This document shows, in pieces, positions 10,889-19,796 of a stretch of 64,000 nucleotides of DNA. The number at the start of each line of letters is the position of its first letter. Within the stretch, counting starts at the first letter, position 1. The position numbers were made by a program, and so were the translations under genes. Location of the stretch: assembly GCA_947259505.1 (NCBI GenBank), contig CAMYLT010000003.1, forward strand, positions 124,001 through 188,000, read 5' to 3'. This DNA comes from an uncultured Porticoccus sp. Its GTDB lineage: Bacteria; Pseudomonadota; Gammaproteobacteria; Pseudomonadales; Porticoccaceae. Below the pieces are notes generated by a model. It ran no database searches and was not told the DNA's origin. It saw only the letters and a program-made list of their open reading frames with translations.

Positions 10889-13800
10889 TCATTTGGGTTG
10901 TGGATACTCATCCAGTTGTCGGTCCAGTTTGCGGGAGACGTGTTGTGGTCCGTGGGAAAAGCATCCCAGCAGTTGGTAGGCCGCCGGCAGCACAAACAGT
11001 GTTAGTACCGTCGCAAAGGCCACCCCGCAAAATAGCGTAATGCCCAGCACTTGGCGGGTTTCAGCACCAGCACCAAAAGACAGGATAAGCGGTATCGAGC
11101 CAGCGATGGTGGTAATGCTGGTCATAATAATGGGCCGCAAACGCACCTGAGCCGCCTCGATGATGGCGTCGTGCACAGAGTCGCCCTGATCCCGCAACTG
11201 GTTGGCGAATTCGACAATGAGAATTCCGTTCTTGGCCGCCAGGCCGATCAGCATGATCAGCCCGATCTGGCTATAGAGATTGAGGGTATTGCCGCTGGCC
11301 CAGAGCCCCAATAGTCCCCCGGCAATGGCCAGTGGCACCGTGAGGATGATGATGAAGGGGCTGACATAGCTCTCGAATTGGGCTGCCAGCACCAGAAACA
11401 TCACCAGAATGCCCAGGGCGAAAACGAAATAGCTGGCGGTGCCGGATTTTTTGTAGTCCAAGGAACGGCCCTTGTAGTCGATCGCTGCCTGTTCTGGCAA
11501 ATGCGCCCTGACCAGGTTTTCCAGATGGGCCAGCCCCTCGCCCAGCGGCAGCCGGTCTTCCAGGTTGGCCTCAATGGTGATGGCGCGGCTGCGGTTGTAG
11601 CGGTTGAGTGTCTTGGAGTCCGCGTATTCCTGCAACGTCACCAGATTGGACAGGGGGATCAGCTGACCGGAGCGTTCGGAGCGCACATAGATGTTCGTGA
11701 GGTCGTGGGGACTGTTTTGTTGATCACGCACACCTTCGATCATCACATCGTATTCTTCACCGGCATCGATATAGGTGGTGACCCGGCGGGAGGCGAGCAT
11801 ACTCTCCAGTGTGCGGCCGATATTTTGTACCGATACGCCGAGTTCAGCAGCGCGGTCGTAGTCAATCAGCACCTGTACCTGGGGACTGGTTTCCCGGTAG
11901 TCGCTGTCGATATCGGTGAACCCGGGATTTTGCTTCTCAATCTCGGCAAACAGAATATCCCGCCAGGCTGCCAGTTCCTCGTAGGTTCCGCCGGCAACCA
12001 CAAACTGCACCGGTTTGGCGGTGCGGTTGCCAATGCCCTGGCGCATGATCGGGTGAATGCGCACCCCGGCCAGGTCAGCGGTCTTGGAGCGAATCTCGGC
12101 CATGATGTCCCAGGCTGAACGGCGTGACCCCCATTCCTCGAGCATTATAATCACCATCCCGGTGCTGAAGGCGTCCCTGGGGGCGCGCACCAGAATACGG
12201 TCGGCATCGCCGCTGTCAGTCAGGGGCAACAGGCGTTGTTCGATCACCTCTATATATTGCCTGGTGTATTCGTAGCTGGCCCCCTCGGGTGCCTGCACCA
12301 TGATAAAAAAGGCACCCCGATCCTCTTTCGGCACATATTCGTTGGGGATGCTGTTCACCAGCCAGACACAGAGGCCAATGCTGAGTGTAAACAGCAGTCC
12401 CACCAGTGCCGGTCGCCTTAATGATGCTTCCACCCAGCGGCTGTAATGGCCTTTAAAGCGGTTAAAGAGGCGATCAACCCGGTTGCCCGTCAGGCCGTTG
12501 TCGACGCGCTTGCGGAGCAACAATGACGCCAGCACCGGGCACAGGGTCAGGGCCACCAGGCTCGAAAACAGCACGGCGGCACTCATGGTGAGGGCGAACT
12601 CTGAGAAAAGCCGTCCCATATCGCCTTCCAGCATGGAGATGGGCGAGAACACGGCCACCAGCACCAGGGTGGTGGCGATCACCGCAAAGCCCACCTGTCG
12701 GGTGCCGCGAAAGGCAGCCACCAGCGCTGTCTCGCGATATTCCGCCATGCGGCGGTGGATGTTTTCCAGTACCACGATGGCGTCGTCCACCACCAGCCCG
12801 ATGGCCAGCACCAGTGCCAGTAGCGTTAGCAGGTTGACGGTAAAGTCCATCGCCATCAGCACGATAAAGGTGGCAATTAGCGAAATGGGCACCGTGACAG
12901 CCGGGACCAGCATGGCCCGGGCGCTGCCGAGAAACAGGTAAATAACAAAAATCACCAGTGCGATACTGATGGCCAGGGTTTTGTAGACTTCGCGGATGGC
13001 TTGCTCAATAAACACCGAGGAGTCGTAGCTCTCGTGAATCTGCATGCCCTCGGGGAGCAGTTGATTGAGTCGTTCCGCCTCTACCTTGGCGGCGCGGGAC
13101 ACTTCAATGGTGTTGGCGGTGGACTGCTTGGTGATGCCCACTCCGACCATGGTTTTACCGTTTCCCCTGAACAGGGTACGGTATTCCTCGGTGCCCTTTT
13201 GTACCGTGGCCACATCGGCCAGCCGCACCAGATAGCCATCTTCACCGCGGCTCAACACCAACTGGCTGAAATCCTCGGCGGTACGGAATACCCGTTTCAC
13301 CCGTACGGTGAATTCCTGCTGGATGGATTCGATCTTGCCGGCGGGCAGTTCGACATTTTCCGAGCGCAGCGCCGCCTCCACATCGCTGACAGTGAGGTTG
13401 TGGGCGGCGAGCTTGATTCGATCCAGCCAGATGCGCATGGCCAGGCTCTGGCCGCCACCCACTCGCACCCGTGCCACGCCATCGAGAATCGAGAAGCGAT
13501 CCACTAGGTAGCGCTCTGCATAATCGGTCAGCTCCGGTACGGAGAGGCGCTCACTGGTGAGGTTGAGCCACATGATCACCTCATCGTTGGTGTCCACCTT
13601 TTCCACCACCGGCAATTCGGCCTCTTCCGGGAGGTCGTCCAGGACTCGGGAAACCCGGTCGCGTACATCGTTGGCAGCGGCCTCTATATCCCGTGACAGG
13701 TTGAACTCGATATTGATTTTCGAAACCCCGTCCGAACTGTTGGATTCGATGTACTTGATCCCCTCGAGTCCGGAAATACGGTCTTCCAATAGTTGGGTAA

Positions 13801-13987
13801 TACGGGTTTCCACCACATTGGCCGCGGCACCGGGATATTTGGTTTCGATGGAGACGATGGGGGGGTCGATATCGGGATATTCCCTCAGGGTCAGGCGATC
13901 GAAAGCGATGACGCCGAATGCGACTAACAGTAGAGAAATAACCGAGGCGAAGACCGGTCGCCGGATGCTGATATCGGAGAGCAGCAT
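10889..13987 (-). CDS. RND efflux pump inner-membrane permease (HAE1 family)
   Basis: A proton-driven RND transporter of about 1032 residues. It opens with LLSDISIRRPVFASVISLLL, the usual first helix, followed by the periplasmic porter loops and two blocks of membrane helices. The proton-relay aspartates are present in LVLAIGLVVDDAIVVLENI, and the second half shows GLAAKNGILIVEFANQL. Start chosen at ATG 13987, four nt after the stop of the adaptor gene; a longer frame upstream overlaps the adaptor. No outer-membrane channel gene lies next to it, so a TolC-type partner must be encoded elsewhere. Substrate cannot be deduced. Confidence 0.95.
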   Translation of the reverse strand: MLLSDISIRRPVFASVISLLLVAFGVIAFDRLTLREYPDIDPPIVSIETKYPGAAANVVETRITQLLEDRISGLEGIKYIESNSSDGVSKINIEFNLSRDIEAAANDVRDRVSRVLDDLPEEAELPVVEKVDTNDEVIMWLNLTSERLSVPELTDYAERYLVDRFSILDGVARVRVGGGQSLAMRIWLDRIKLAAHNLTVSDVEAALRSENVELPAGKIESIQQEFTVRVKRVFRTAEDFSQLVLSRGEDGYLVRLADVATVQKGTEEYRTLFRGNGKTMVGVGITKQSTANTIEVSRAAKVEAERLNQLLPEGMQIHESYDSSVFIEQAIREVYKTLAISIALVIFVIYLFLGSARAMLVPAVTVPISLIATFIVLMAMDFTVNLLTLLALVLAIGLVVDDAIVVLENIHRRMAEYRETALVAAFRGTRQVGFAVIATTLVLVAVFSPISMLEGDMGRLFSEFALTMSAAVLFSSLVALTLCPVLASLLLRKRVDNGLTGNRVDRLFNRFKGHYSRWVEASLRRPALVGLLFTLSIGLCVWLVNSIPNEYVPKEDRGAFFIMVQAPEGASYEYTRQYIEVIEQRLLPLTDSGDADRILVRAPRDAFSTGMVIIMLEEWGSRRSAWDIMAEIRSKTADLAGVRIHPIMRQGIGNRTAKPVQFVVAGGTYEELAAWRDILFAEIEKQNPGFTDIDSDYRETSPQVQVLIDYDRAAELGVSVQNIGRTLESMLASRRVTTYIDAGEEYDVMIEGVRDQQNSPHDLTNIYVRSERSGQLIPLSNLVTLQEYADSKTLNRYNRSRAITIEANLEDRLPLGEGLAHLENLVRAHLPEQAAIDYKGRSLDYKKSGTASYFVFALGILVMFLVLAAQFESYVSPFIIILTVPLAIAGGLLGLWASGNTLNLYSQIGLIMLIGLAAKNGILIVEFANQLRDQGDSVHDAIIEAAQVRLRPIIMTSITTIAGSIPLILSFGAGAETRQVLGITLFCGVAFATVLTLFVLPAAYQLLGCFSHGPQHVSRKLDRQLDEYPQPK

Positions 13988-13991
13988 AGGA

Positions 13992-15074
13992 TTAATATGC
14001 CCCGCTCTCTGCTGGGGAGGATTGCTGTAGCAGTTGCTCCAGGGTCTCTTCACCCTGCTGGGTGGCGGCGATGGTGACCGCCGTGCCCTGGTTGAGACGC
14101 ATCACGCCGTGGGTCACCACCAGCTCTCCCGGCTTTATACCCTGGGTGACCACCACGGCCCCAGGCCGCCGGGAACCGATGTTGAGTTTGCGTTTGCTGA
14201 CGGTCGCCGGTTGCGTGCCGGTATTGACTACAAACGCGTACTGGTTGAAGCCTTCCTGTACCAAGGCTTCCTCGGGAATCATCAGGCTGTCCACCGCCGC
14301 TTTTTGCAGGGTCACCGTCATCAGCATGCCCGGTTTGAGATGCCGCTGCGGGTTGGACAACAGGACCCGCACGCCAATGGCGCGAGTCACCGGATCGACC
14401 CGGGAATCCAGGCTGGCGATTTCGCCCTCAAAAGGTTGGCCATTCAGTTCTTCCGCCACGGCGACGATCTTCAATCCCGGCTGCAAACTGCCGAGAAAAA
14501 TGGCGGGTACCGACATGTCCAGTTTCATGACGCTGTCGTCGTCCAGTGTGGTAATGGCCTCGCCGGGGGTTACCAGGGCGCCGACACTGATTTTGCGCAG
14601 CCCCACCACGCCATCGAAGGGGGCGACCACCAGTCGATCCTGTAGTCGCGATTGGGTGGCGCGCAATTTCGCCTGGGCGGTTTCATAGGCGGCACGGCGT
14701 TCATCCAGCAGCGACTGGCTGGCGAGGTTGGTCTTCACCAGTCCCTTGATACGCTGGTATTGGCGTTCTGCTTCCCGGAGGGTGGAGCGCGCTTCCTCCA
14801 GCTGTGCGTGTTCTTCCTCGCTGGTCATTTCCACCAGCACCTCTCCCGCCTTGACTCGCCTGCCGTCATCAAAGTGAATGGCAGTAATGGTTTCCGTGAC
14901 CGTGGCAGAGAGTGTTACGGCTTCATTGGCGCGCAGGGTGCCCAATGCTTCGATTGTTTCGGCAAAGGGTTCAACTGTCGCGGCTTTGACAAACACTGGC
15001 ACCGGTGGTGCGGCCACAGCCGGTAAGGGGGAGACCCCGAACAGCAAGGTGATGGCAATGGCTTTCAGTTGCAT
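13992..15074 (-). CDS. RND efflux periplasmic adaptor (membrane fusion protein)
   Basis: A 360-residue periplasmic adaptor of the HlyD/AcrA type linking the RND permease to an outer-membrane channel. A cleavable signal peptide (LKAIAITLLFGVSPLPAVAA) is followed by the first lipoyl half-motif (ETIEALGTLRANEAV), a coiled-coil hairpin (about residues 95-150), the second lipoyl half (LVVAPFDGVVGLRKISVGALV) and beta-barrel/proximal domains. No lipobox cysteine is seen. ATG 15074 is chosen because it begins the signal peptide and follows a GGA-type ribosome site. It is transcribed first, with the RND permease immediately downstream. Confidence 0.93.
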   Translation of the reverse strand: MQLKAIAITLLFGVSPLPAVAAPPVPVFVKAATVEPFAETIEALGTLRANEAVTLSATVTETITAIHFDDGRRVKAGEVLVEMTSEEEHAQLEEARSTLREAERQYQRIKGLVKTNLASQSLLDERRAAYETAQAKLRATQSRLQDRLVVAPFDGVVGLRKISVGALVTPGEAITTLDDDSVMKLDMSVPAIFLGSLQPGLKIVAVAEELNGQPFEGEIASLDSRVDPVTRAIGVRVLLSNPQRHLKPGMLMTVTLQKAAVDSLMIPEEALVQEGFNQYAFVVNTGTQPATVSKRKLNIGSRRPGAVVVTQGIKPGELVVTHGVMRLNQGTAVTIAATQQGEETLEQLLQQSSPAESGAY

Positions 15075-15203
15075 GTCTGAGCGTCCTTTTTTCGCGGTTC
15101 CCGGGGTTGCAAAGCATAAAAGTTGGGCTGTGATGAAATATGACAGTTCCCGCCGCCAATGCAAAGAAAAGCCTATGCCTGCAGGTATGGGTGGGATCAT
15201 TTG

Positions 15204-15220
15204 TGCACTGTTTTGGTGCC
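15204..15220. promoter_or_regulatory. Candidate NtrC enhancer site
   Basis: The 17-mer TGCACTGTTTTGGTGCC matches the NtrC consensus TGCACCA-WWWW-GGTGCA in both half-sites (TGCAC and GGTGC) and in the AT-rich centre. It lies about 120 bp upstream of a weak sigma-54-like element and 200 bp upstream of the guanidine riboswitch, in the correct range for an enhancer. Confidence 0.5.
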
Positions 15221-15336
15221 GACAGGCTTTTCTGCACTAAAAATAGCCATTCTGTCATCCTCTGAATGAGGTTTGTAACTGGCACCCATTCCCCTGGTGC
15301 CCCGTAGTCTGGGTGTTTGGGGGGTGCCCAAAAAAA

Positions 15337-15355
15337 TTGGCATGTATCCTGTATG
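15337..15355 (+). promoter_or_regulatory. Weak sigma-54-like -24/-12 element
   Basis: TTGGCATGTATCCTGTA matches the -24 box well (TGGCA) but the -12 box poorly (TGT where TGC is expected). Spacing GG to G-T is right. Considered only because of the NtrC-like site upstream; a sigma-70 promoter closer to the riboswitch was not convincing either. Confidence 0.3.
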
Positions 15356-15406
15356 AGGTTTCCACAAGTGTTCATACTTTTGGCAACACGATTCAAGACA
15401 ATCTGG

Positions 15407-15532
15407 CAAATAGAGCGCTAGGGTTCCGATCCGTTGAGATATGAAATCGATGGATGACTGGTCCGAGAGCACTCGACCTCTCAGTGGTATCAGAGGTTAC
15501 ACGGCGGGACAAAAGCCCGGGAGACTTGTTTG
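15407..15532 (+). ncRNA. Guanidine-I (ykkC) riboswitch
   Basis: The leader of the carboxylase operon holds the near-invariant aptamer blocks of the guanidine-I class in order: CTAGGGTTCCG at 15418-15428, ACTGGTCCGAGAG at 15457-15469, then ACACGGCGGGACAAAAGCCC with GGGAGA at 15499-15524. P1 can form from 15407-15413 with 15526-15532. A variable stem pairs ACCTCT (15476-15481) with AGAGGT (15492-15497). The riboswitch senses free guanidinium and normally turns genes on. The arm 15476-15485 is also a perfect complement of the downstream Shine-Dalgarno region, suggesting translational control. Confidence 0.95.
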
Positions 15533-15589
15533 GCGTTGAGCCAAAAGTACTCCACTTGCACCGGTGTAACCCGATACACAAGAAAACCG

Positions 15590-15599
15590 ACTGAGAGGT
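15590..15599 (+). promoter_or_regulatory. Ribosome binding site complementary to riboswitch arm
   Basis: ACTGAGAGGT contains the ribosome-binding GAGAGG 6 nt before ATG 15605. It is the exact reverse complement of ACCTCTCAGT at 15476-15485 inside the aptamer. When the aptamer is folded, six of those bases are occupied by AGAGGT 15492-15497, so ligand binding would free the site. Confidence 0.55.
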
Positions 15600-15604
15600 T
15601 TATC

Positions 15605-16648
15605 ATGAAAAAAACTGCCGCAATTCTGCTTGCTTCCCTGCTGTTCTCCTCCGGCGCCATGGCGCGCGATGATTTCAAAATCTGCTGGTCGATTTATGTC
15701 GGCTGGATGCCCTGGGCTTATGGTGCCGAATCCGGCATCGTCAAGAAGTGGGCCGATAAATATGACATCAGTATCGACGTGGTACAGATCAACGACTACG
15801 TGGAATCCATCAACCAGTACACCGCCGGCCAGTTCGATGCCTGCACCATGACGAACATGGACGCGCTGACTATCCCCGCTGCCGGTGGCGTGGACAGCAC
15901 TGCCCTGATCGTGGGCGATTTTTCCAATGGCAATGATGCGGTGATCCTCAAAGGCAAGGAGTCACTGGCAGACATCAAGGGCCAGAAGGTCAATCTGGTG
16001 GAACTGAGTGTGTCTCACTACTTGTTGGCGCGGGGCCTCGAATCTGTGGGTATGAGTGAAGCCGACGTGCAGGTGGTGAATACCTCCGATGCGGACATGG
16101 TGGCCGTGTACGGCACCGATGGCGTTACTGCGGTGACCACCTGGAACCCGCTGGTGAGCGAGATTCTCTCCATGCCCAATAGCCACAAGGTGTTCGACTC
16201 ATCCCAGATTCCCGGCGAGATCATCGACCTGCTGGTGATCAATACCGAAACCCTGAAAGAAAACCCTAAACTGGGCAAGGCATTGACCGGCGCCTGGTAT
16301 GAAATCATGGCGCTGATGAGCGGCACGGGTGAGGATGCCGAAGCCGCTCGCACTTTCATGGCCCAAGCCTCCGGCACCGATCTGGCGGGTTACGACGCCC
16401 AGCTGGCGGCCACCAAAATGTTCTACACCCCGGCGTCTGCCCTGGAACTGAACATGAGCGACAAGCTCACCGCCACCATGAAGGCGGTGGCCGAGTTTTC
16501 CTTTGACCATGGAATACTGGGTGATGGCGCTCCCGATGCTGGCTTTATCGGAGTGGAAACGCCTGCCGGACTCTACGGTAGCAGCACCAATGTCAAACTC
16601 CGATTTGATCCCAGCTACATGAAAATGGCTGCTGATGGCGAACTCTAG
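15605..16648 (+). CDS. Guanidine (annotated urea-carboxylase-type) ABC transporter, substrate-binding protein
   Basis: Periplasmic binding protein of the NMT1/TauA-like family found with urea carboxylase-type operons. It has a classical signal peptide (KKTAAILLASLLFSSGAMA) and a mature domain starting DFKICWSIYVGWMPWAYG; family features include QYTAGQFDACTMTNMD and AVTTWNPLVSEI. 347 aa. First gene after the guanidine-I riboswitch, so guanidine is its most likely ligand rather than urea (inference). A strong hairpin after its stop may raise its dose relative to the membrane components, as is usual for binding proteins. Confidence 0.88.
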   Translation: MKKTAAILLASLLFSSGAMARDDFKICWSIYVGWMPWAYGAESGIVKKWADKYDISIDVVQINDYVESINQYTAGQFDACTMTNMDALTIPAAGGVDSTALIVGDFSNGNDAVILKGKESLADIKGQKVNLVELSVSHYLLARGLESVGMSEADVQVVNTSDADMVAVYGTDGVTAVTTWNPLVSEILSMPNSHKVFDSSQIPGEIIDLLVINTETLKENPKLGKALTGAWYEIMALMSGTGEDAEAARTFMAQASGTDLAGYDAQLAATKMFYTPASALELNMSDKLTATMKAVAEFSFDHGILGDGAPDAGFIGVETPAGLYGSSTNVKLRFDPSYMKMAADGEL

Positions 16649-16701: not shown

Positions 16702-17520
16702 ATGAAACGCCTTGTTAATCTGACGCCATCTCCGGTCATCAGCGCCATGCTGTCAATCCTGCCATTCGTGATGATACTGCTGGTTTACGTGGCCGCTTCC
16801 GATGTGCGACTGGAAGCCAACCCCAACGACAAGCTGCTGCCGAGTTTTACCCAGATCGGTGATGCCCTTCAGCGAATGGCCTTTGAGCCCAGCAAGCGCA
16901 CCGGGGAATATCTGTTCTGGCAGGATACCGCCAGCAGCCTGTCGCGCCTCGGGCTGGGGGTGTTGATTGCAGCTTCTTTAGGATTGCTGATCGGTATCTT
17001 CACCGGCGCGCTACCGTTGGTAAATGTGGGGGTCTCTCCGCTGTTGACCGTGGTGTCGCTGGTGCCACCGCTGGCGCTGTTGCCGATACTGTTCATTGTT
17101 TTTGGCCTCGGTGAATTGTCCAAGGTGATGTTGGTGGCCATCGGTATCACACCGGTGATCGCCAGGGATATCCAGCGCCGTGCAAGGGAAATTCCTGCAG
17201 AGCAACTGGTCAAGGCCCAGACATTGGGAGCCAGTACGCCACAGATTCTGATCCGCGTATTACTCCCCCAGTTACTGCCGAAACTCATTGATGCAGTACG
17301 GCTGTCTCTGGGCGCAGGCTGGTTGTTTCTGATTGCCGCCGAGGCTATTGCTTCCACCGATGGACTGGGTTATCGAATCTTTCTGGTGCGTCGCTATATG
17401 TCCATGGATGTGATTCTGCCCTATGTGGCGTGGATCACCTTGCTGGCTTTCTTCTTTGACGTGGCACTGGCCTGGATCAGTCGCAAGCTGTTTCCCTGGC
17501 ACGCACAGGGAGGGTCCTGA
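16702..17520 (+). CDS. ABC transporter permease of the guanidine/urea carboxylase locus
   Basis: A 272-residue inner-membrane permease of the BPD_transp_1 (SsuC/TauC-like) type with about six hydrophobic helices. The EAA loop, where the ATPase docks, is seen around residues 165-190 (IPAEQLVKAQTLGASTPQIL). The segment SRLGLGVLIAASLGLLIGI and the PLALLPILFIVFGLGE stretch are typical. It lies between the binding protein and the ATPase, two nt from the latter's ATG, and belongs to the permease subfamily seen next to urea carboxylase homologues. Substrate inferred from the riboswitch. Confidence 0.9.
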   Translation: MKRLVNLTPSPVISAMLSILPFVMILLVYVAASDVRLEANPNDKLLPSFTQIGDALQRMAFEPSKRTGEYLFWQDTASSLSRLGLGVLIAASLGLLIGIFTGALPLVNVGVSPLLTVVSLVPPLALLPILFIVFGLGELSKVMLVAIGITPVIARDIQRRAREIPAEQLVKAQTLGASTPQILIRVLLPQLLPKLIDAVRLSLGAGWLFLIAAEAIASTDGLGYRIFLVRRYMSMDVILPYVAWITLLAFFFDVALAWISRKLFPWHAQGGS

Positions 17521-17522
17521 TC

Positions 17523-18326
17523 ATGATGATTGAAGCGAAAAACCTCTGGAAACGCTATGGCGACAACGTGGTGCTCGAGCAGATTAATCTGCAGGTGGCC
17601 GAGCGGGAGTTCATCACCATGGTGGGCACTTCCGGTTGTGGCAAGAGCACCTTTCTGAAAATGCTGTTGGGTACCGAATCTTCCAGCAGTGGCACGCTGC
17701 TGCTGGACGGCAAACCCATCAGTACCGAGCCTGGTCCCGACCGTGGCATTGTATTTCAGCAATATTCGGTGTTTCCCCACATGACGGTGCTGGAAAACGT
17801 GGTGGCTGCCAAGGCTTTCCAGCGCAGGGGTATTACCGGCTACCTGTTCGGCAGCGCTAAAGCTGCAGCGCGCAAGGAAGCTGGCGACATCCTTCAGCAG
17901 GTGGGCTTAAGCCATGCTCTGGATCGCTATCCCCACGAACTGTCCGGCGGCATGAAACAGCGGCTGGCCATTGCTCAGGCGCTGCTCGCGAAGCCGCGCA
18001 TTCTACTGCTGGATGAACCGTTCGGTGCGCTGGACCCGGGCATTCGCGCCGATATGCACGATCTGATCCTGAACTTATGGCGGCAGTACAAGCTCACCGT
18101 CTTCATGGTCACCCATGATTTGAAGGAAGGCTTTTACCTGGGCACCCGGTTGTGGGTGTTCGACAAACTGCGCCACGACCCCCAGGCCCCCAACGCCTAC
18201 GGGGCCTCCATTACCTATGACTTGTCCGTTGGCCAGATGGACGCCAGTCTCTACCAGGAAATCGACGACAGTCTCAGGCCCATTGTGACTGGCCAGACGG
18301 TTGACGGGCTGGAAGGAACGCTATGA
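17523..18326 (+). CDS. ABC transporter ATP-binding protein of the guanidine/urea carboxylase locus
   Basis: A 267-residue ATPase energising the neighbouring permease. Walker A is GTSGCGKST, the Q-loop lies in VFQQYSVFPHMT, the ABC signature is LSGGMKQR, Walker B is RILLLDEPFGALD and the switch histidine is in FMVTHDLKE. The C-terminal extension after residue 215 (YDLSVGQMDASLYQEI) is characteristic of the urea carboxylase-associated ATPases. A GGAGGG ribosome site precedes ATG 17523. Its end overlaps the next ATG by four nt (ATGA), so the deiminase subunit is coupled to it. Confidence 0.92.
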   Translation: MMIEAKNLWKRYGDNVVLEQINLQVAEREFITMVGTSGCGKSTFLKMLLGTESSSSGTLLLDGKPISTEPGPDRGIVFQQYSVFPHMTVLENVVAAKAFQRRGITGYLFGSAKAAARKEAGDILQQVGLSHALDRYPHELSGGMKQRLAIAQALLAKPRILLLDEPFGALDPGIRADMHDLILNLWRQYKLTVFMVTHDLKEGFYLGTRLWVFDKLRHDPQAPNAYGASITYDLSVGQMDASLYQEIDDSLRPIVTGQTVDGLEGTL

Positions 18327-19075
18327 CACAGATGCACTACACCACCGACATCGCACCCGGCGGCCACTGGTCGCTGCGACTGCGCCGCGGCACGCTGATG
18401 CGGCTCACCGACCTCGAGGGCGGCGCCAACGTCGGTATGCTGTTCTACAACCCGGAAAATCTGCTGGAGCGCTACAACGCGCCGGACACCCTCAAGTGTC
18501 AGCACACCTTCAAATTGACCTGCGGCAACTGCCTGTATTCGGACATGGGGCGCATCTTCGCCTCGGTGGTCGAGGACAGCGTTGGCTGGCACGAAACCGT
18601 GTGCGGCAACAGCCGCGCCGACCAAATAGCGGTGCGCTGGGGACGCCGCGACTACCAGGGTGACCGCAACCAGTGGCACCAGAACGGCCACGACGCCTTC
18701 CTGGTGGAACTGGCCAAATACGGTCTCGGCAGCGCCGACCTTGCCGCCAACGTCAACTGGTTCAGCCAGGTTGCTGCCGATGACGACGGCAATCTGCGGC
18801 TGGTGGAAGGGGCCAGTCCCGCCGGCAGCCAGCTGAGCCTGCGCTTCGAGATGGACACTCTGGTGCTGTTGCACAGCTGCCCCCATCCCCTCAATCGCGC
18901 AGCCGACTATCCAGCTCGCCCGGTACGTATCGAGCTGGGGATTGCCGATCCGGTCAGCCTGGACGATGTCTGCCGCAACCACTGCCCGGAAAACCGCCGC
19001 GGCTTTGCCAACAATGCACTCTATTACTTGGGCACCGCCCCCGAGCTTGTGCCCATGCTGGGGGAGGATCTCTAA
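18323..19075 (+). CDS. DUF1989 protein, probable carboxyguanidine deiminase subunit (UAAP1-type)
   Basis: Belongs to the larger of two DUF1989 paralogues that accompany urea carboxylase-type operons (urea amidolyase-associated protein 1). In guanidine-riboswitch-controlled homologues the pair forms carboxyguanidine deiminase, which converts carboxyguanidine to allophanate and ammonia. Visible family segments are [24 protein letters not shown], shown here as its halves [15 protein letters not shown] and [12 protein letters not shown], a cysteine-bearing [19 protein letters not shown] and HSCPHPLN near the end; these carry likely metal ligands. 250 aa. ATG overlaps the ATPase stop, and the paralogue follows one nt after its stop. 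Confidence 0.87.
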
Positions 19076-19076
19076 C

Positions 19077-19718
19077 ATGCTGACCAGCAGTTCACGCCAA
19101 CCGGAAAATGCCTGCCTGCGGCAGCTGATCGATGCGGGGGATTACTATCTGGGCACGGTCAAGGCCGGGCAGACTCTGCGAATTCTCGATCTGGAGGGCA
19201 ATCAGGCAGCGGATACCCTGTTTTACAGCGCCGCCGACCCGGCAGAGCATTACAGTGCCACAGATACTATTCGCGAGCAGGGTAATCTCTACCTGACCAC
19301 CGGCTCGGTGCTGCGCTCCAACGAGAACCGCCCTATGCTGGAAATCGTCGCTGATACCTGTGGCCGCCACGACACCATTGGCGGCGCCTGTGCCACCGAG
19401 AGTAACACCGTGCGTTACGACCTGGAAAAGCGCTGCATGCACGCCTGTCGTGACAGCTGGATGTTGGCAGTCGCCGAGCACCCGGAATTCGGTATTGGCA
19501 AGCGGGGCATCAGTCACAACATCAATTTCTTCATGAATGTGCCAGTCACCGCAGAGGGTGGGTTGACCTTCGAGGACGGCATCTCCGCGCCGGGCAAATA
19601 CGTAGAGCTGACGGCCAAAATGGATGTGCTGGTGTTGATCTCCAACTGCCCGCAGCTCAATAACCCCTGCAACGGCTACAACCCCACGCCAGTGGAAATT
19701 CTGGTCTGGGATCACTAG
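19077..19718 (+). CDS. DUF1989 protein, probable carboxyguanidine deiminase subunit (UAAP2-type)
   Basis: Second DUF1989 paralogue, 213 residues, expected partner of the preceding gene. Family segments parallel those of its neighbour: [60 protein letters not shown] and [19 protein letters not shown]. The paired Cys/His positions (GRHDT, GGAC, NCPQ) match those in the first paralogue and probably bind metal. ATG 19077 follows the previous stop almost directly; a longer frame upstream lies inside the previous gene and was not used. Role inferred from biochemistry of homologues and from the riboswitch. Confidence 0.87.
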
Positions 19719-19796
19719 CCCACAACCCCTCTCCCTTCGGTGGACGGCCATCGAAGTCGCCATAAGAATCGGGACGACCCGGTCGAGGTTAGCAAG

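Follow-up and report, generated by a model that had tools for sequence, protein, structure and literature searches.

How a guanidine-I riboswitch may control its operon when one arm of the aptamer is complementary to the ribosome site of the first gene is the question raised by a leader within the window, the 64,000-nucleotide stretch of DNA from an uncultured Porticoccus sp. that was analysed here. An initial annotation, made from the sequence alone, had assigned 15407–15599 to the guanidine-I class and proposed that the unliganded aptamer arm masks the Shine-Dalgarno (SD) sequence until guanidinium frees it. The class assignment holds: RF00442 is the sole Rfam model reported at this site, and the match covers the full length of the model (1–107), with the conserved blocks and the P1/P2/P3 fold. 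By covariance model, the RNA is a guanidine-I member, and its aptamer would be expected to bind guanidinium.

An Rfam scan of the window found two RNAs above threshold, one guanidine-I and one guanidine-II, and the operon thus carries two guanidine sensors. Open reading frames and family searches place genes for guanidine transport and breakdown downstream of the guanidine-I RNA on the same strand (Table 1). UAAP1 and UAAP2 are candidate carboxyguanidine deaminase subunits. In the available text of two recent papers, carboxyguanidine deaminase occupies the same place in such operons (PMC12186494, PMC12508155). The layout matches that of the two-riboswitch operons of Raoultella, Erwinia, and Klebsiella, where the portion of the review available describes guanidine-I before importer and carboxyguanidine deaminase genes and guanidine-II before the carboxylase gene (PMC12186494), and is similar to the Vreelandella boliviensis operon as far as that paper's accessible text describes it (PMC12508155). 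Operon layout and ligand class are already known in kind. Directly upstream, a divergent pair of reading frames (10889–15200, minus strand) looks, by eye, like an RND efflux pump and a membrane-fusion protein.

Table 1. Features of the guanidine locus, in window coordinates.
Feature	Position	Strand	Basis or remark
Sigma-54-like promoter element TTGGCATGTATCCTGTA (putative)	15337–15353	+	degenerate −12 half
P0 5′ strand TACTTTTGGC	15375–15384	+	perfect complement of 15540–15549
Guanidine-I aptamer, RF00442	15407–15525	+	Rfam, 86.2 bits; gathering score 63
Switch strand (P2 5′ strand and loop)	15475–15485	+	partner 15492–15498 (ON) or SD stretch (OFF)
P2 3′ strand and conserved joining strand GGTTACACGG	15495–15504	+	partner 15561–15571 in OFF
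P4 5′ strand GGAG-ACTT, starting at aptamer 3′ end	15520–15527	+	pairs 15545–15553 in OFF
P0 3′ strand, shared with P4	15540–15549	+	pairs 15375–15384 (ON) or 15524–15534 (OFF)
Inner-helix strand, complement of 15495–15504	15561–15571	+	folding and comparison
SD-containing stretch ACTGAGAGGT	15590–15599	+	masked in predicted OFF fold
ABC transporter substrate-binding protein, TIGR03427 (predicted regulated gene)	15605–16648	+	ORF and family search
ABC permease	16702–17520	+	best models taurine type, under their cut-offs
ABC ATPase	17523–18326	+	best model nitrate type, under its cut-off
UAAP1 (TIGR03425), candidate carboxyguanidine deaminase subunit	18323–19075	+	family search
UAAP2 (TIGR03424), candidate carboxyguanidine deaminase subunit	19077–19718	+	family search
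Guanidine-II riboswitch, RF01068, 5′ of carboxylase gene	19736–19782	+	Rfam, 34.7 bits; gathering score 32
Urea/guanidine carboxylase, TIGR02712	19797–23414	+	1850.4 bits
Allophanate hydrolase, TIGR02713	23427–25241	+	family search

The helices first read by eye fared differently. The pairing of ACCTCT (15476–15481) with AGAGGT (15492–15497) is P2 of the Rfam fold, and TTTGGC (15529–15534) and GCCAAA (15540–15545) are complementary as described, with 15530–15534 pairing 15540–15544 in the OFF fold. The strand at 15526–15532 had been called the 3′ strand of P1; as P1 it does not stand, the Rfam P1 lying inside 15413–15474, but a closing stem is possible there. When the closing stem P0 and P2 were both forced in folding, 15526–15531 paired with 15396–15401. 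The P1 closing strand as originally named is absent from the Rfam model, and P0 takes its place.

For comparison, searches with RF00442 had matches in 12 of 58 relatives, 12 of 112 genomes of the family, 111 of 390 of the order (110 above the cut-off), and 29 of 369 of the class. The first set held 221 loci (L001–L221), of which 44 came from searches, 97 were further matches, and 80 were reached via the binding protein (the best 80 of 367). Leaving out 14 loci without anchors, none of which enters any statistic, and three records without an SD-bearing start gave 205 records, 184 of them unique; 9 of the 184 could not be parsed, giving 175 leaders in 104 clusters. An SD of at least 4 nt was required, which favours SD-bearing leaders; in L044, L052, and L115, no start codon with such an SD lay within the search distance. 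Also left out were three order matches below threshold (G297 had two and G219 one) and, from the class search, eight second matches; the position test further omitted L062 (103 rows), the inner-helix test one cluster (103), and the P0 test L012 and L191 (102). The class sample comprised 29 loci (L222–L250, with L243 a repeat of L109), 25 of which were anchored, giving 28 records that retain the near-twins L233/L237, L240/L241, and L225/L250. In the swap tests, each aptamer arm (or flank) was paired in silico with its own and with other clusters’ partner regions. The rows of alignments A1 (19) and A2 (32) were chosen by hand among leaders that share a similar architecture (GTRCTC is present in 61 of the 184); because related rows can exceed shuffles without structure, counts from these alignments illustrate, and the cluster swap tests carry the weight.

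Several loci stand apart. All seven named loci without anchors have RF00442, and six of the seven from the order sample could be read (L102, L103, L116, L127, L136, and L140, not L141); in these, GGTCCAAGAG replaces GGTCCGAGAG within a block that otherwise hardly varies, as it does in L229, L246, and L249. Some genomes hold two or three guanidine-I copies, in some cases only a few kilobases apart; examples are one contig of G472 (C14; L023, L045, L066) and G456, where L088 and L118 share a contig and L114 lies on a second one. The contig of L181 is labelled as an Acidimicrobiales MAG; its locus protein is 75% identical to the window’s gammaproteobacterial protein, and the contig is possibly mis-binned.

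In the window itself, ACCTCTCAGT (15476–15485) is 100% complementary to the SD-containing stretch, as the initial annotation had reported. By an arithmetic estimate, an aptamer of 119 nt and an SD region of 40 nt would share a perfect 10-nt complement by chance with a probability of about 0.005. A search of 15330–15620 for inverted repeats with arms of at least 10 nt (seed 8) returned three: the arm/SD pair, the P0 pair, and a palindrome at 15556–15569. RNA folding, which had been suggested as a check, gave a minimum free energy structure of 15407–15620 that contains the arm/SD helix (−75.3 kcal/mol, z −4.6 against shuffles); in the fold of 15407–15625 this helix has 11 bp, joining 15475–15485 with 15590–15600. 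The SD core was predicted to be unpaired with a probability of 0.005 when the leader was folded from 15385 and of 0.40 when only the sequence downstream of the aptamer was folded.

The initial annotation held that the two arms should covary in relatives, and they do. Across the 104 clusters, mean arm/SD energy was −11.28 kcal/mol with the own partner and −8.85 kcal/mol with swapped partners (z −11.2; reached in 0 of 20,000 permutations), 22 clusters falling singly in the best 5% of swaps. The controls gave z −0.6 (arm against coding start), +2.0 (P1 loop against SD), and −2.2 (reversed arm). Contiguous helices of at least 8 bp occurred in 43 clusters against 18.0 expected, of at least 9 bp in 28 against 7.2, and of at least 10 bp in 18 against 2.9. 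With arms anchored independently (103 rows), positions 2–4 beyond the CC:GG core covaried (z 3.7, 4.6, and 2.8), and covariation at position 1 and positions 5–11 fell short of significance. Compensatory changes are seen, for example, as ACCTTTTAGAT/ATCTAAGAGGT in L002, GACCTTCGAAG/CTTCGGAGGTT in L180, and CTCCAGTTG/CAACTGGAG in L039. When the test was limited to bases lying 5′ of the SD core, the signal was weak (z −2.6 vs. −2.1 for the reversed control). In the 19-row alignment, columns 27–31 were 100% paired and two SD-helix pairs had changes on both sides; pairs changed on both sides numbered 3 against 0.7 in shuffles (2 of 500), and the structure as a whole (SD helix, P4, and hairpin) showed no excess covariation (0.099 vs. 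0.097 shuffled).

Predicted accessibility follows the same pattern. The mean unpaired probability of the SD in the 104 clusters was 0.21 with the own aptamer, 0.30 with a swapped one, 0.32 with a shuffled one, and 0.35 for the downstream part alone; own was lower than swapped in 72 of 104 (Wilcoxon p = 1e-5). SD–P2 pairing exceeded 0.5 in 66 clusters. L002, from the same genus, has an 11-bp complement yet a predicted SD–P2 pairing of 0.08. Mutually exclusive aptamer and SD pairings that covary across relatives are the mark of a translational, SD-masking riboswitch, and the leaders appear to bear it. The comparative evidence thus supports the originally proposed masking and its release by guanidinium, and we infer that the window’s leader may control translation. 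Three elements had been missed: an inner helix, P0, and P4.

The inner helix involves a partner of the nearly invariant GGTTACACGG that lies between aptamer and SD. In the window, 15564–15571 (GTGTAACC) pairs 15495–15502, plus two further pairs. Across relatives, its energy was −10.8 against −8.0 for shuffled spacers (z −14.4, n = 103), and 39 clusters beat 95% of their own spacer shuffles; two other aptamer stretches gave z −0.4 and +0.8, and the reversed strand −3.5. The motif GTGTAA is present in 30 of the 104 spacers, where 1.9 would be expected. As the aptamer strand hardly varies, reading TTACACGG in 96 of 104 clusters, this evidence is conservation rather than covariation. In folding of the growing transcript, the inner helix is predicted to form before the SD is transcribed.

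P0 came to light from sequences flanking the aptamer: in the upstream sequences of relatives, a conserved GTACTC before the aptamer mirrors a GAGTAC after it. Both aptamer ends are unpaired in RF00442, from which P0 is absent, and folding without the 5′ flank (from 15407 or 15385) hides the stem. With P0 and P2 forced, a longer, interrupted stem joins 15365–15404 with 15522–15558. In 102 of the 104 clusters, flank energy was −24.5 kcal/mol for own and −18.9 kcal/mol for swapped partners (z −14.8), with 44 clusters singly in the best 5% of swaps and at least 9 contiguous bp in 51, against 15.4 expected. Controls gave z −3.6 (reversed flank), −1.9 (flank further upstream, n = 65), and −0.2 (flank against SD). 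The 32-row alignment contains 11 P0 pairs, 88.9% paired, with covariation of 0.335 against 0.201 in shuffles (0 of 500) and at most 0.118 when slid, and 31 cells changed on both sides against 10.2. Less telling in these rows were the pairs with changes on both sides (6 vs. 4.0; 37 of 500) and the pair types (12 vs. 11.5), and the pair at columns 31/229 was unpaired in 16 of the 32.

Since P0 and the SD helix cross, both cannot form in one nested fold. In the 102 clusters, the mean number of expected P0 pairs was 7.1 in the intermediate and 1.6 in the full leader, compared to 2.4 in intermediates with swapped flanks (medians in intermediates: 2.6 own, 1.3 swapped). At least 6 P0 pairs were expected in 38 of 102 own and 11 of 102 swapped intermediates, and 31 of the 38 lost more than half of them in the full leader. 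In the class sample, P0 is weaker yet present (z −3.6, n = 28). Among swaps, the four terminator-type records (from three genomes) hold ranks of 0.78, 0.33, 0.93, and 0.85; among the other 24, 8 rank at 0.41 or worse and 11 at 0.15 or better. These ranks are only suggestive that terminator-type loci may be without P0.

The P0 3′ strand has a second predicted partner in P4, a hairpin that joins 15520–15534 with 15540–15553 in the OFF fold. P4 was 92% paired in the 32-row alignment, where its covariation was not above shuffles, and its matched energy was modestly better than swapped (z −3.9). The absence of a T-tract terminator, remarked on from the start, was borne out: a search of 15150–15750 found none between aptamer and start codon, and its sole terminator-like site, at 15178–15195, is upstream of the aptamer. 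T5 runs occurred in 10 of 104 cluster spacers against 8.3 expected, and GGGC-T terminators in 0 of 184 unique leaders; the same pattern found them in 4 of 28 class-sample records (three genomes) and is therefore able to detect them. L225, L227, L234, and L250, outside the order, are guanidine-I loci of the terminator type. The aptamer strand GCCCGGGAG can take part in a terminator stem there; after it come a CTCC...GGG-type strand and a T-run, and P0 is not evident.

These pairings can be arranged in one proposed order of events. As the leader is transcribed, the aptamer would fold and its flanks would zip into P0 through the perfectly complementary strands, with further pairs. Without guanidinium, the strand at 15561–15571 would invade GGTTACACGG and open P2, the P0 3′ strand would change partners to form P4 locally, and the P2 5′ strand, now free, would capture the SD stretch at 15590–15600, giving the OFF state. 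Guanidinium would hold the aptamer, preserving P2 and P0 and leaving the SD accessible at least in part (ON). The pairings themselves, the covariation of the SD helix and P0, the fact that the inner helix and P4 are conserved, and the order P0, inner helix, SD helix are all computed results. In the growing transcript from 15365, P0 had probabilities of 0.96, 0.25, 0.98, and 0.94 at ends 15550, 15555, 15560, and 15565; at ends 15575 and 15580, P4 reached 0.85 and 1.00 and the inner helix 0.36 and 0.94; the SD helix reached 0.96 at end 15600. The model further supposes a strand-invasion step and a P2 that would stand beside P0 in the ON state.

The energies indicate what the ligand would have to do. 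P2 reached only 0.04–0.24 in transcripts ending at 15550–15575, and with P0 forced alone a non-aptamer fold (−72.9) was preferred over P0 with P2 (−70.7). P2 is therefore rare beside P0 in the folding model, a serious weak point, and the ON state would depend on ligand and tertiary contacts, which the model lacks. The OFF fold (−83.6) is favoured over P0 with P2 by 12.9 kcal/mol, a gap that was 22 kcal/mol when the aptamer and the downstream part were taken apart without the flank; with OFF so much more stable, the ligand must presumably take effect ahead of the inner strand, or else trap the fold kinetically. A weak AAACC/GGUUU stem pairs SD bases 15597–15599 when the ON fold is forced, and because these bases are still paired when P2 alone is forced, folding of the downstream part alone was used as the locked state. 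We regard the whole model, in which competing pairings of RNA strands make up a translational ON-switch that senses guanidine, as probable, with greater confidence in SD masking than in the role of P0.

Other readings of the leader have to be weighed against this. In a transcriptional switch with an intrinsic terminator, P4 would be the terminator stem. Such a platform would suit the class, described in the accessible text of two papers as usually (PMC12186494) or presumably (PMC12508155) transcriptional, P4 resembles the upper terminator stem of L225, L227, L234, and L250, and T5 runs do exist in 16 of 184 leaders. However, in the window no T-run follows P4, the frequency of T5 runs is near that expected by chance, GGGC-T terminators are absent from the 184 leaders, and the covariation with the SD would be left unexplained; we rejected an intrinsic-terminator platform for the window and consider the reading highly improbable. 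Almost as improbable, and already disfavoured, is that the complementarity of arm and SD is a by-product of a P2 5′ strand that reads CCTC like the 16S rRNA anti-SD, with regulation located elsewhere. Swapped arms do already reach −8.8 kcal/mol, and covariation is absent at position 1, beside the CC:GG core (matched 0.76, swapped 0.75). Against this stand the far better energy of matched arms (z about −11), the covariation of positions 2–4, the excess of helices of at least 10 bp, and the conservation of an independent inner helix.

Two further readings seem unlikely. Rho-dependent termination could be the main output of the masking, so that mRNA level changes too; two papers discuss, in the parts available, how translational riboswitches can be coupled to Rho and to mRNA level (PMC10907184, PMC12508155), although such coupling would add to SD masking and not replace it. 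P0 could also serve structure or stability, or be bound by a protein, with no part in switching. Its covariation would then look identical, and P2 is rarely formed beside it in the folding model; conversely, P0 shares its 3′ strand with P4, is crossed by the SD helix, and is predicted to be present in intermediates and lost in full leaders. For the window’s leader, we continue to favour the translational ON-switch.

The aptamer belongs to a known class; the proposed expression platform is a new variant. With guanidine-I (ykkC subtype 1), the window’s leader shares aptamer sequence and fold, the downstream guanidine genes, and the expected ON logic; it differs in a predicted SD-masking platform rather than a terminator, which is usual for the class, not class-defining. 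A 2025 review, as far as its text was available, describes guanidine-I as usually a transcriptional ON-switch (PMC12186494). The V. boliviensis guanidine-I RNA, which binds guanidine with an apparent KD of 44 uM, is presumed to be transcriptional in the accessible part of a 2025 paper (PMC12508155), whereas the window’s leader would argue for translation. A further difference is the covarying P0. The portion available of a 2018 study of crystal structures (PMC6031431, eLife) describes a P0 end helix in the PRPP riboswitch (ykkC 2b) that is involved in its expression platform and not present in guanidine-I; the absence of P0 is not among the features by which the class is defined. A possible likeness to the PRPP riboswitch lies in the end helix, recognised by complementarity in the window and by covariation in relatives. 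The differences are that the PRPP riboswitch has another ligand and purine genes (PMC7266159, available text), where the window has guanidine genes and its P0 is crossed by an SD helix; family searches found no purine-synthesis gene context at the window’s operon. As in strand-exchange translational riboswitches, described in the accessible text of PMC10907184, the switching strand would be held by either the aptamer or the expression platform, but here it comes from P2 and not from the first helix, and the inner helix and the P0/P4 exchange are added. In the literature searched, we recognised no description of a translational guanidine-I riboswitch or of a guanidine-I P0; the founding report of Nelson et al. 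2017 was outside the search, and an earlier mention is possible.

The promoter region may hold a second control input. For motif counts we took the sigma-54 consensus to be of the TGGCAY-N5-TTGCW type, a pattern that the window’s own element, TTGGCATGTATCCTGTA, does not match; if this element were used, transcription would be expected to start near 15364. Among the 98 unique leaders of L001–L221 whose upstream DNA was long enough, 30 have such a motif 5′ of the aptamer and 1 has it in a control stretch some 800–1000 nt upstream; a second count gave 29, at a median of 58 nt before the aptamer. On the evidence of these motifs, nitrogen limitation could be a control input of guanidine-I leaders.

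The competing helices give clear, mutually testable predictions. If the translational branch is real, mRNA measurements and terminator-based reporters would misjudge the response to guanidine, and the presumed mechanism in operons like that of V. boliviensis would be worth re-checking. P0 in guanidine-I would alter the contrast between guanidine and PRPP riboswitches within the ykkC family, as drawn in the available text of PMC6031431. A wider picture, which we hold tentatively and with slightly more doubt than conviction, is that the Gammaproteobacteria possess a large translational branch of guanidine-I riboswitches in which P0 is topologically exclusive with SD capture, GGTTACACGG serves as a toehold, the decision is kinetic, and sigma-54-like promoters add a second input. 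A strand made just after the aptamer would invade GGTTACACGG unless guanidinium had locked it, the P0 3′ strand would be handed to a hairpin resembling a terminator without its U-tract, and the decision would precede transcription of the ribosome site. Together with sigma-54-like promoters, such leaders would form a two-input gate that responds to nitrogen shortage and guanidine.
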